Notes under the pieces: model-generated
Seen by the model: only the letters and a program-made list of their open reading frames with translations
Told to the model about the DNA's origin: nothing
Database searches by the model: none
In this document: positions 35,733-40,015 of the stretch, one piece after another
Layout of the letters: each line of letters begins with the position of its first letter
Numbering within the stretch: the stretch's first letter is position 1
Program-made: the position numbers and the translations under genes
Assembly: GCA_903863375.1 (NCBI GenBank)
Contig: CAIPBT010000032.1
Location: 1 to 40,793, forward strand
DNA from: an uncultured Ferrovum sp.
Lineage (GTDB): Bacteria; Pseudomonadota; Gammaproteobacteria; Burkholderiales; Ferrovaceae
Direction: 5' to 3'
DNA: 40,793 bases

Positions 35733-36566
35733 ATGCGAAATGTCGATCTGCATTGCCACTCCACCGTCTCCGACGGCCTGCTCAGCCCCACTGCCGTGGT
35801 GGATCTGGCGGCGCGCGGTGGCGTCGACATGCTGGCGCTTACCGACCACGACGATGTGGCGGGGCTGGCGGAGGCGGGCGTGGCAGCGACAGCCCGCGGC
35901 ATCCGCCTGATTCCAGGCGTCGAGATTTCGGTCACCTGGGACCGTCTGACCATTCATGTGGTGGGTCTGCGGATCGATCCGCAGCACCCGGCGCTGCTCG
36001 CCGGGCTGGCTGCGATCCGCGCCGGCCGTCGCCTGCGCGCCGAGCGGATGGCTGAGGACCTGGCGCGGGCCGGCATCCCCGGGGCGCTGGCCGGAGCGCG
36101 TGCCTTTGCGTCTTCCGACGAGATGATCGGGCGAACCCATTTCGCCCGCTTTCTGGTACAGCAGGGCAGGGCACGCAACGTTGCCGCCGTGTTCAGACGT
36201 TATCTGGTTCGGGGCAAGCCGGGCTATGTGGCACACGCCTGGGTGAGCCTGGATGATGCCCTGGGCTGGATCCACGCTGCTGGTGGCGTTGCCGTGCTGG
36301 CACACCCGGGCCGCTACAAGGTGGGCAGTGAGGGCATGCGGCGCCTGTTGCTGGATTTTCGCGCCCTCGGCGGCAAAGCGGTGGAAGTGGTCACGGGCAA
36401 CCACACGCGCGAGCAGGTAAGCCGCTTTGCCGGATTGGCGGAGGCCTATGGTTTTGCCTGTTCGCGAGGGTCTGATTACCACGGGCCGGGTGAGAGCTTC
36501 ACGCTGCCGGGCCAGCTGCCCCCGTTGCCGGCAGGGTGTGTGCCGGTCTGGCAGGCCTTTGCCTGA
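35733..36566 (+). CDS. rnm: PHP-domain phosphoesterase (RNase AM/YciV type)
   Basis: The PHP-domain protein is of the YciV/TrpH kind. The E. coli member is a 5'-3' exoribonuclease (RNase AM) and hydrolyses 3',5'-nucleoside bisphosphates. The 277-residue product has metal-binding H7 and H9 in DLHCHSTVSDG. LTDHDDVAG near 36-44, PGVEISVTW near 60-68, VLAHPGRY near 188-195 and SRGSDYHGPG near 248-257 complete the trinuclear metal site. Its stop shares TGATG with the yciO-like gene. Which of the two activities matters here is unknown. Confidence 0.88.
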   Translation: MRNVDLHCHSTVSDGLLSPTAVVDLAARGGVDMLALTDHDDVAGLAEAGVAATARGIRLIPGVEISVTWDRLTIHVVGLRIDPQHPALLAGLAAIRAGRRLRAERMAEDLARAGIPGALAGARAFASSDEMIGRTHFARFLVQQGRARNVAAVFRRYLVRGKPGYVAHAWVSLDDALGWIHAAGGVAVLAHPGRYKVGSEGMRRLLLDFRALGGKAVEVVTGNHTREQVSRFAGLAEAYGFACSRGSDYHGPGESFTLPGQLPPLPAGCVPVWQAFA

Positions 36567-37192
36567 TGTCCCAGTACTTTCAGGTGCATCCGCAGAATCC
36601 TCAGCCACGTCTGATCCGGCAGGCGGCGGAAATCCTGCGCGACGGCGGCGTGATCGCGTATCCGACGGACTCCTGCTATGCGCTGGGATGTCTGCTCGAC
36701 GACAAGCCGGCCGTGACCCGTATCCGGGCCATCCGGCAGCTTGACGAGAGCCATCACATGAGCCTGATGTGCCGGGACTTGGCCGAGATCGCGCGGTTTG
36801 CCAAGGTCGACAACAGCACCTACCGTCTGCTGCGCGCGCACACGCCTGGCAGCTATACCTTCCTGCTCACCGCCACCAAGGAGGTACCGCGCCGCCTGCA
36901 GCATCCCAAGCGCTCGACGATCGGCCTGCGGGTGCCGGACCATCCGGTGGCGCTGGCGCTGCTGGAAGCGCTTGGCGAACCGATGGTCAGCACTACCCTG
37001 CTGTTGCCCGGTGACGAGGTGGCTCTCGCCGATGGCGAAGACATCCGGCAGCGTCTCGAGCGCCAGATCGATCTGGTGCTGGACGGCGGTACCTGCGGCC
37101 TCCGGGTCACCACCGTGATCGACCTGTCCGGTGCAACGCCGGTGCTGATCCGCGCTGGCCGTGGCAGTCTCGATTCCTTTGACTTCGAATGA
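36566..37192 (+). CDS. yciO: YciO-type Sua5/YrdC family protein
   Basis: The 208-residue protein has the YrdC fold without the extra Sua5 domain. YrdC and Sua5 make threonylcarbamoyl-AMP for t6A in tRNA; the YciO branch has a poorly defined role. Seen are GGVIAYPTDSCYALGC near residues 27-42, HHMSLMCRDL near 63-72, PGSYTFLLTATKEVPRR near 92-108, and STIGLRVPDHP near 116-126. The position after a YciV-type gene repeats the yciV-yciO pairing of E. coli. I chose the ATG overlapping the preceding stop; an upstream frame start at 36536 lies inside the previous gene. Confidence 0.9.
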   Translation: MSQYFQVHPQNPQPRLIRQAAEILRDGGVIAYPTDSCYALGCLLDDKPAVTRIRAIRQLDESHHMSLMCRDLAEIARFAKVDNSTYRLLRAHTPGSYTFLLTATKEVPRRLQHPKRSTIGLRVPDHPVALALLEALGEPMVSTTLLLPGDEVALADGEDIRQRLERQIDLVLDGGTCGLRVTTVIDLSGATPVLIRAGRGSLDSFDFE

Positions 37193-37211: not shown

Positions 37212-37883
37212 ATGACTGAAATCCTGCTGAACCTGCTGATCGTTGCCATCCCGCTGATCCTCGCCATCACGGTTCGCCCGGTCGCGCAGGAGTGGATGTG
37301 GGCACGCATCGAGGCCCCGTCAAATGTCCGCCGGCTGCGCGTCGATTACAATCCGCTGCGCTTCGTCGATCAGGTCGGTACCCTTGCCGTTCCGTTCATC
37401 ATGTTTGTCTTCAGCCAGATCACCCATGCCCCGATGGGTTTGATCGGCTGGGCGAAGCCGGCGCGTCAGGGCTTTCGCATGCGCAACCCACGCCAGTCGC
37501 TGCGCACCGTGGCACTGGCAGCCCTGGGCAGCAGCGTGGCCATGATGCTGGCCTGGGCCCTGATCCTGCGCGTGCTCTTCATCCTGGGGGCCGGCAGCAA
37601 CGCGCTGCCGCTGCTGGTGCTGCAGCAGATGGCCAATTACGGCATGGAAATCAATGCGTTCCTGCTGGCCTTCCATCTGATCCCGATTCCGCCTCTGGAT
37701 GGCGGGCGCATCGTGGCGAGCCTGCTGCCGCGCGACCTTGCCAACCAGTACGAACAGCTGGAGGCTTACGGCATGCAGATTGTCCTGGTCCTGGCCATTG
37801 TGCCGGGATCGCCCCTTGGCCTGATCCTGCGTCCGATCGCCAATACGGCCCTGGGCCTGGCTGGCCTCGTGGCGGGCTCCTGA
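37212..37883 (+). CDS. Site-2 protease homologue lacking HExxH (probable pseudoprotease)
   Basis: The hydrophobic 223-residue protein resembles the M50 rhomboid-like zinc protease subgroup common in Neisseriales. Membrane segments lie near 4-22, 50-72, 95-120, 135-160 and 180-200. The usual HExxH at the end of the first segment is replaced by RPVAQ (R22 to Q26), so two zinc ligands and the catalytic glutamate are missing. The third ligand motif survives as IPIPPLDGGRI with D163, although the preceding Asn position is H155. NPLRFVDQVGTLAVP is retained. The frame is intact, with normal codon use, so it is not a broken gene. The ATG at 37212 is preferred to GTG 37206. It lies between yciO and trpS. 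Confidence 0.82.
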   Translation: MTEILLNLLIVAIPLILAITVRPVAQEWMWARIEAPSNVRRLRVDYNPLRFVDQVGTLAVPFIMFVFSQITHAPMGLIGWAKPARQGFRMRNPRQSLRTVALAALGSSVAMMLAWALILRVLFILGAGSNALPLLVLQQMANYGMEINAFLLAFHLIPIPPLDGGRIVASLLPRDLANQYEQLEAYGMQIVLVLAIVPGSPLGLILRPIANTALGLAGLVAGS

Positions 37884-37922: not shown

Positions 37923-39125
37923 ATGTATCCTGATCGCGTCCTGTCTGGCATGCGGCCAACCGGGGCCCTGCATCTGGGGCACTACTACGGTGTGCTGAAA
38001 AACTGGATCCAGTTGCAGCACGAGCATGAGTGCCTGTTCATGGTCGCCGACTGGCATGCCCTGACCACGCATTACACCGAACCGGCATTGATCGAGCAGA
38101 GCGTCTGGGACATGGTGACGGACTGGCTGGCGGTGGGCATCGATCCGAACCAGTCCACGCTGTTCATCCAGTCGCGCGTGCCGGAGCATGCCGAACTGCA
38201 TCTGCTGCTGTCGATGATGACGCCGCTGGGCTGGCTGGAACGCATGCCAAGCTATAAGGACCAGCAGGACAGCCTCGCCGACCGTGATCTGTCTACCTAT
38301 GGGTTTCTTGGCTATCCCCTGCTGCAGGCGGCCGACATCCTGATCTATCGCGCCAATCAGGTGCCGGTTGGCGAAGACCAGGTGCCGCACATCGAAATCA
38401 CCCGCGAGATTGCGCGCAGGTTCAACCATCTCTACGGTCGCGAGCCCGGCTTTGAAGAAAAGGCGTTGATGGCGGTCCGGCGCCTGGGCAACAAGAAATC
38501 GCGTCTGTACCTGGAACTGCGGACGCGCTACACCGAACAAGGTGACGACGAAGCCCTCGAGGCGGCACGCGCGCTGCTGGCCGACACCCAGAACCTGACG
38601 GTGGCAGACCGCGAACGCGTCTTTGGCTATCTCGAAGGCAGTGGCAAGATGATCCTCGCCGAGCCGCAGGCGCGACTGACGCAGGCCTCACGCCTGCTCG
38701 GCCTTGACGGTCAGAAGATGTCGAAATCGTATGGCAACACCATTGCGTTGCGTGACGAGCCAGACACCATCACCCGCAAGGTGCGCACCATGCCGACCGA
38801 TCCGGCGCGGGTGCGCCGCAGCGATCCCGGTGATCCTGGCAAGTGTCCCGTGTGGTCGCTGCACGAGGTGTACAGCAGCGACGACACCCGGCGCTGGGTG
38901 CACGAAGGGTGTACCACGGCCGGCATCGGTTGCCTTGACTGCAAGCAGCCGGTGATCGACCGCATGCAGGCCGAGCTGGTGCCGGTGCGCGAGCGGGCAC
39001 TGGCCCTGCAGGAAGATCCCACCGCCGTCCGCAACGTGCTGGCGGATGGTTGTGAACGCGCCCGCAAGCTCGCCCAGGACACGATGCGCGATGTGCGCGA
39101 TGCCATGGGCCTCAATTACACGTGA
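37923..39125 (+). CDS. trpS: Tryptophanyl-tRNA synthetase
   Basis: This class I synthetase charges tRNA-Trp. The HIGH-type motif is HLGH at 17-20 (in GALHLGHYYG) and the KMSKS loop lies at 265-269 (GQKMSKSYGN). The LPLLQAADILIY-like block appears as YPLLQAADILIYRA, followed by VPVGEDQVPHIE. At 400 residues it is longer than E. coli TrpS (334), in line with the longer form of many betaproteobacteria. A Cys-containing stretch near 330-343 (GCTTAGIGCLDCKQP) belongs to that longer form. The stop shares TGATG with scpA. Confidence 0.95.
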   Translation: MYPDRVLSGMRPTGALHLGHYYGVLKNWIQLQHEHECLFMVADWHALTTHYTEPALIEQSVWDMVTDWLAVGIDPNQSTLFIQSRVPEHAELHLLLSMMTPLGWLERMPSYKDQQDSLADRDLSTYGFLGYPLLQAADILIYRANQVPVGEDQVPHIEITREIARRFNHLYGREPGFEEKALMAVRRLGNKKSRLYLELRTRYTEQGDDEALEAARALLADTQNLTVADRERVFGYLEGSGKMILAEPQARLTQASRLLGLDGQKMSKSYGNTIALRDEPDTITRKVRTMPTDPARVRRSDPGDPGKCPVWSLHEVYSSDDTRRWVHEGCTTAGIGCLDCKQPVIDRMQAELVPVRERALALQEDPTAVRNVLADGCERARKLAQDTMRDVRDAMGLNYT

Positions 39126-40015
39126 TGGTCGAGCCAGGAGTGATTCCGGCGCCGCCCGGCGACGCCGGCGTCCCGGCGGATGGAGAGGGGCAGGATCCGG
39201 CGGCAGCGCCGCCGGCGCGGGCGCGGGTGCGCGGCGAAGCCCTGCTGGAACTGCCGCAGGACCTGTATATTCCGCCCGAGGCGCTGGAAGTCTTCCTGGA
39301 AAGTTTCGAGGGACCGCTCGACCTTCTGCTGTATCTGATCCGCAAAAACGCGCTGGACATCCTCGACATTCCGATGGCCGAGTTGACCTTGCAATATGTG
39401 GCCTACATCGATGCCATGCAGTCGACGCGGCTCGAACTGGCCGCTGAGTATCTGGTGATGGCAGCCGTGCTGATCGAGATCAAGTCACGCATGCTGCTGC
39501 CGCGCCCGCCCAATGTGGTCGAGGACGAGTCGGCCGACCCGCGCGCGGAACTGATGCGCCGCCTGCTGGAATACGAACGGATCAAGCTGGCCGCCCGCGC
39601 CCTCGACGCCATTCCGCGCATCGGGCGCGACTTCCAGCCAGCAGCGGCCGAACTGCTGCAGGATCTGGCGCCCCGCCTGCCCCAGGTGGCGGCCGAGGAA
39701 CTGCGCGATGCGTGGTACGCGGTGCTGGCACGCGCCCGCATGAATCGTCATCACCAAATCGCCCGGGAGGAACTCTCGGTGCGTGAGCACATGACCCGTA
39801 TCCTGCGGCGCTTGAGTGATGGTGCCTTCCTGGGATTTCTGGATCTGTTCGACGCCGGAGCACCGGTCCCCATCGTGGTGGTGCATTTCGTCGCCCTGCT
39901 GGAACTGGTGAAAGAGGGGCTGGTTCAGTTGATGCAGGAGCAGAATTTCGCACCCATCTACGTCCGCCTCGCCGGCCGCGAGCCGATCCTCGAACCTGTT
40001 GCCGAGACTGATTGA
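39125..40015 (+). CDS. scpA: Segregation and condensation protein ScpA
   Basis: ScpA is the kleisin subunit that bridges SMC heads in the SMC-ScpAB condensin. The 296-residue product has an unusual Pro/Ala/Gly-rich N terminus of about 35 residues. The family core then begins with FEGPLDLLLYLIRKNALDI near residues 62-80, followed by YLVMAAVLIEIKSRMLLPRP near 107-126. The C-terminal winged helix holds REHMTRILRRL and VVHFVALLELVKEGLV. I chose the ATG overlapping the trpS stop; a GTG one codon earlier is possible. It overlaps scpB as TGATG. An smc gene is not in the window. Confidence 0.93.
   Translation: MVEPGVIPAPPGDAGVPADGEGQDPAAAPPARARVRGEALLELPQDLYIPPEALEVFLESFEGPLDLLLYLIRKNALDILDIPMAELTLQYVAYIDAMQSTRLELAAEYLVMAAVLIEIKSRMLLPRPPNVVEDESADPRAELMRRLLEYERIKLAARALDAIPRIGRDFQPAAAELLQDLAPRLPQVAAEELRDAWYAVLARARMNRHHQIAREELSVREHMTRILRRLSDGAFLGFLDLFDAGAPVPIVVVHFVALLELVKEGLVQLMQEQNFAPIYVRLAGREPILEPVAETD

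Follow-up and report, generated by a model that had tools for sequence, protein, structure and literature searches.

Pseudoenzymes are usually seen as spare duplicates. Among the site-2 proteases (S2Ps, M50), in which zinc is held by the Asp of an LDG motif and a pair of His residues (PMC10202637), pseudoproteases were found described only in plants in the open-access literature that we searched, the case being Arabidopsis EGY3, which has no HExxH, has retained a role and is reported to stabilise other chloroplast proteins (PMC10978774). The iRhoms belong to an unrelated serine-protease family and likewise represent an intramembrane protease fold that has outlived catalysis (PMC6451368, PMC3149277); they bind clients, coexist with active rhomboids and have gained extra domains. 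Substrate binding by S2Ps has been documented in two ways, as substrate is still co-purified with the inactive E44Q mutant of SpoIVFB (PMC11486902), and P397 and P399 of RseP touch the substrate helix (PMC4597795). The described proteins nearest to the one reported here are the S2Ps encoded beside trpS in Burkholderiales (PF02163), which have approximately 215-230 aa, in which no PDZ or CBS domain was found and for which we found no described function in the literature.

The protein considered here has 223 aa and is encoded in a 40,793-nucleotide stretch of DNA (the window) from a lake-dwelling, iron-oxidising bacterium, whose genome (G000; 3.25 Mb, 226 contigs, 97% complete) belongs to a genus of five species. 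It is an orthologue of the trpS-linked site-2 proteases (M50), an S2P homologue both by descent, given its full-length homology to a sister-species orthologue with an intact HEAAH motif (E 4e-51), and by gene order, and its identity to orthologues ranges from 33 to 77%. It shares with the trpS-linked S2Ps its place between yciO and trpS/scpA, its length and the motifs NPxxxxDxxGT, GWAKP and LPxPPLDGGR; unlike them, it is a putative pseudoprotease without HExxH, the active-site Asn or AGP, in which the Asp is the only ligand left. The match to Pfam Peptidase_M50 was limited to the C-terminal half and, at 27.1 bits, fell just under the cut-off of 27.2, as would be expected because the N-terminal motif is lost. 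Nineteen bases separate yciO from the gene and 39 bases separate the gene from trpS, after which come scpA and scpB (Table 1), and each of the five species has yciO upstream in this same gene order.

Table 1. Location of the features discussed in the text; positions are those of the window unless another contig or locus is named.
Feature	Location	Strand	Basis or remark
PHP-domain gene, heads gene row	35733..36566	+	PF02811 2.6e-10; kept across genus
yciO/Sua5-YrdC-type gene, upstream neighbour	36536..37192	+	PF01300 1.5e-47; synteny
S2P homologue linked to trpS and lacking the zinc-binding HExxH (223 aa), putative pseudoprotease	37212..37883	+	intact ORF; purifying selection
RPVAQEWMW, residues 22-30, replaces HEAAHGYVA	37275..37301	+	identical in second species
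NPLRFVDQVGTLAVP, family motif (NPxxHxDxxGT in active members)	37350..37394	+	His51 replaced by Phe
HLIPIPPLDGG, residues 155-165	37674..37706	+	zinc Asp D163 and prolines kept; Asn replaced by His155
trpS, downstream neighbour	37923..39125	+	synteny and phylogeny marker
scpA, overlaps trpS end	39122..40015	+	
Orthologue in third species, all zinc ligands lost	G001:C137 ~46349-47011 (L010 1486-2169)		intact 227-aa frame
RseP, single gene in two pieces at the ends of contigs C62 (after dxr) and C214 (before bamA)	L002 1357-1632; L001 1447-2787	-	
SpoIVFB-like M50 protein, 281 aa	G000:C99 (L003 1306-2151)		HEMGH and LDGG

The replacement of the catalytic motif was apparent from two alignments. 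In the alignment with 28 orthologues, RPVAQ (residues 22-26, 37275-37289) occupies the columns of HEAAH, and in a profile match to the M. jannaschii S2P (3B4R, E 1e-4) it falls on H54-E55-x-x-H58, with R22 on H54, P23 on E55, Q26 on H58, H155 on N140 and D163 on D148. A HExxH displaced to another part of the protein is impossible, since H72 and H155 are its sole histidines, and no HExxH was seen when the other two forward frames through the motif were read by eye, as would have been needed for a shifted frame. The PLDGGR of active S2Ps, which carries the third zinc ligand, is present (LDGG at 37695-37706, with D163), and the prolines of HLIPIPPLDGG that align with substrate contacts of RseP are retained, P158 and P160 corresponding to P397 and P399. 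These results agree with the preliminary description of the window, which had reported a loss of HExxH, a retained LDGG with D163, an uninterrupted reading frame and an operon with yciO, trpS and scpAB at a position held by active S2Ps in relatives; the frame is intact, the position is conserved and active orthologues lie at the same locus. Its further claim of an otherwise conserved core stood for NPLRFVDQVGTLAVP, which is present, but not throughout: the His of this motif is now Phe, AAGP now reads AALG with the loss of AGP, and the Asn preceding LPxxPLDGG (NLLP), which is Asn in 130 of 130 members with HExxH, is now His155. With both zinc His and the catalytic Glu absent, a loss of activity would follow from the chemistry of the family.

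An AlphaFold2 model built with six sequences was of moderate confidence (pLDDT 65, pTM 0.63), the pLDDT being 44 with two sequences only. When the moderate model was submitted to VIA-align, the top six rows were S2Ps (128-158 residues, rmsd 3.5-4.5 Å), with Z values of 7.4-10.0 that included 10.0 for A. aeolicus RseP, 8.8 for K. koreensis RseP, 8.7 for M. jannaschii S2P (149 residues) and 7.4 for SpoIVFB; all Z values were below 13, which is modest for a helical protein. Foldseek on its own returned no significant match for the same model. The structure matches are best taken as agreement with the sequence evidence and no more. By profile match and the modest structure match, the three-helix core may be like those of SpoIVFB E44Q (8VJM) and the M. 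jannaschii S2P (3B4R), but E44Q is a laboratory mutant in which the zinc ligands are kept, whereas here every zinc His was lost in nature.

To place the loss in the order Burkholderiales, orthologues were collected by subfamily match, which was obtained in 330 of 399 genomes (83%). HExxH was present in 130 of the 133 orthologues read, a set of mostly better-scoring sequences from this order only, outside of which lie ~195 weaker ones. All 130 keep the Asn and the Asp, and the three exceptions are members of the genus of the window (G000, G001 and G002), a distribution that rules out chance for the altered motif. In G002, an independent MAG of a second species, the orthologue has the same RPVAQEWMW, His155 and Asp163, the same gene order and 77% protein identity, and this repetition shows that the motif does not stem from an assembly error. 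In the third species, G001, the orthologue has diverged strongly (44% identity) and reads PVAAT instead of HEAAH, with Ser at the position of the Asn and Pro at that of the Asp (MPGG for LDGG). The sister species G003 and G004 retain HEAAH, the Asn and the Asp (LDGG) and are the nearest HEAAH relatives, at 47% identity. The third-position GC of the S2P genes is 0.80-0.92 in the three loss species vs 0.46-0.48 in the two HEAAH species, and the genome sizes are 3.3-3.4 Mb vs 2.2-2.3 Mb. Two Burkholderiales orthologues with intact HExxH (G287 and G190) were flagged with one in-frame stop each (TAG and TAA, respectively), the TAG falling within a conserved region. Within the Ferrovaceae, 30 trpS loci were compared, and yciO and the S2P gene lie beside trpS in 5/5 members of the genus and 0/25 others (one of these being an incomplete locus); no detectable copy of the orthologue was present anywhere in the 27 genomes searched from other Ferrovaceae genera. 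In these, yciO as well as the S2P gene is gone from upstream of trpS, and the two perhaps left together.

Both the trpS tree and the five-protein tree resolved the genus as its own clade beside other Ferrovaceae, and the relationship to Chromobacteriaceae and Neisseriaceae supposed in the preliminary description was not upheld. Photosynthetic reaction-centre genes are present in four of the five genomes of the genus, which is most likely 'Candidatus Solisferrum' (GTDB CAIVHB01), a genus reported from stratified lakes (PMC13390463), the name being assigned on the basis of the Ferrovaceae placement and the reaction-centre genes. In the tree of five concatenated neighbouring proteins G001 joins G000 and G002 (98/99), with G003 and G004 as sisters, so that the RPVAQ-type members form a clade, as had been put forward for examination. 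The trpS tree by itself did not settle the branching (90/34 for an outermost G001), and weak agreement with the loss clade came from the S2P gene tree (82/58), in which long branches meet. Two independent losses were rejected based on the five-gene tree. Since the three exceptions form one clade, a single loss of HExxH in their common ancestor would be the most parsimonious and simplest history. Horizontal gain was also considered and rejected, as the S2P gene tree unites all five members of the genus (99/99).

Several lines of evidence point to purifying selection on the gene after the loss. The NG86 estimate of dN/dS between G000 and G002 was 0.168 at a dS of 0.89, and those for the neighbouring genes were 0.126 (php), 0.105 (yciO), 0.104 (scpA) and 0.043 (trpS). 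When branch classes were fitted by ML in a codon model (F3x4, in-house script), omega on the two RPVAQ tips was about 0.10 (0.09-0.10 by ML, 0.09-0.17 by method) and omega = 1 was rejected (2dlnL 125, and 119 in a separate five-taxon run); five-taxon runs for each neighbour gave tip omegas of 0.03-0.08 (php 0.08, yciO 0.06, scpA 0.05) vs 0.10 for the S2P homologue. Background branches with the HExxH motif had an omega of 0.04 (ML). The inner branches after the loss had an omega of 0.32, which is above background (p = 0.0013) and below 1 (p = 0.0005) and is a rough value, as silent sites on these branches are near saturation; it comes from a three-class model, used because saturation led to an unbounded omega on one inner branch in a five-class model. 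Sequences simulated under neutrality up to the silent divergence of G000 and G002 retained ~21% identity and acquired 4.4 stops per lineage, 2% of the runs being free of stops, whereas the observed pair has 77% identity and zero stops. The differences between G000 and G002 amount to 1/35 in residues 167-201, which follow LDGG, and 4/27 in residues 140-166; the 0/9 in RPVAQEWMW is unremarkable alone (permutation P = 0.09). The constraint in G001 is less strong and more difficult to measure, and the G001 frame is intact, as are those of the other two loss species, without stops or frameshifts. Taken together, the codon data indicate a history of motif loss, then a faster phase and then constraint, and an S2P homologue that lacks the zinc motif yet is kept by selection. 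The earlier view of a pseudoprotease rather than random decay is therefore supported.

The window's genome encodes two other M50 proteins, an RseP with intact HEYGH and LDGG and a SpoIVFB-like protein that was not found in the other four species of the genus; neither belongs to the trpS-linked subfamily, and no intact paralogue of the trpS-linked subfamily was found in it (97% complete). A second RseP gene was rejected, as the pieces on C62 and C214 overlap in identical sequence and represent one gene. As there is no intact subfamily copy, it was the single orthologue itself that became a pseudoenzyme, and the role of helper to a true S2P offered in the preliminary description would have to refer to RseP or the SpoIVFB-like protein. 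Given that proteolysis by the subfamily is absent from this genome, the selected role must be a non-proteolytic one. The protein is a bacterial counterpart of the kind already known from EGY3, likewise an S2P homologue without HExxH that has been kept; the difference is that EGY3 is a plant family member beside the active EGY1 and EGY2, while here a bacterial single-copy orthologue has no active subfamily paralogue. The iRhom-type setting, in which the genome also encodes an active protein from the pseudoprotease's own subfamily, is not found here either.

We consider it somewhat probable that the protein is a zinc-free, catalytically dead S2P fold, kept by selection, that probably binds membrane segments without cutting them. 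In the proposed sequence of events, a single-copy trpS-linked protease would have lost HExxH and the active-site Asn once, in an ancestor shared by three species of the 'Ca. Solisferrum' type, and a faster phase would have been followed by purifying selection. In the RPVAQ pair, R22 would sit at the position of the first zinc His and probably stabilises the vacated zinc site through an ion pair with D163, a pairing derived from homology and not from a reliable model. Such a pair may be why D163 is kept where R22 is present and both are gone in G001, a pattern that involves two lineages only. Transmembrane segments would most likely still be held, uncut, in the former substrate groove (TM1, TM3 and the region of P158/P160), in which case the role may be that of a membrane adaptor or chaperone; precedents for this are SpoIVFB E44Q, the RseP prolines whose counterparts are retained here, and EGY3, and client binding by iRhoms follows a similar principle.

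Other explanations were weighed against the same data. It is unlikely that the gene is on its way out, catalysis having become dispensable in Ferrovaceae and the protein being an eroding relic headed for the absence seen in other genera. The lack of a detectable copy in 27/27 other Ferrovaceae genomes searched fits such a course, as do the raised omega of the inner branches (0.32), a selection on the S2P homologue that falls somewhat short of that on yciO, scpA or trpS, and the state of the PVAAT species, whose strong divergence and additional loss of the Asp are readable as slow loss; however, omega has been 0.09-0.10, far below 1, since the RPVAQ species split, and the three species have accumulated zero stops or frameshifts where ~4 stops per lineage and 21% identity would be expected of a neutral copy. 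Binding to RseP or its substrates so as to tune cleavage, in the manner of iRhoms with rhomboid clients, strikes us as quite unlikely, in spite of the intact RseP encoded in the genome and the old substrate prolines retained in the pseudoprotease, given that the protein is an orthologue of another subfamily and not a duplicate of RseP, that it has no PDZ domain, that rseP is not co-located and that the HEAAH species, which also contain RseP, keep an intact version at the same locus.

We regard as improbable a rebuilt metal or proton site composed of H155, D163, Q26 and E27, which would make the protein an altered enzyme or an ion-binding protein. His155 does stand in place of an invariant Asn in both RPVAQ species, which also retain D163 and share E27 and W28/W30, but there are no histidines other than H72 and H155, Pro, Arg and Gln now occupy the positions of the essential Glu and both zinc His, and the lack of both His155 and Asp163 in the PVAAT species means that the clade as a whole does not have this site. 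That one MAG was misassembled or misbinned, in favour of which the 226 contigs of the genome could be cited, is refuted by the second genome, with its same motif at 77% identity in the same gene order, and has a negligible chance of being correct.

The broader proposal, to which we give slightly less than even odds, is that a single-copy S2P orthologue in its ancestral operon was converted lineage-wide to a zinc-free membrane adaptor or chaperone, and that this widespread subfamily would thus have a selectable non-proteolytic function. What distinguishes this locus is that a common membrane protease, present in a single copy, died here and yet persisted across two or more speciation splits, while the orthologues of the sister species, at the same locus and with the motif intact, are available as controls. 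As such, the case separates cutting from any non-cutting role of a subfamily that is matched in 83% of the genomes searched in the order.
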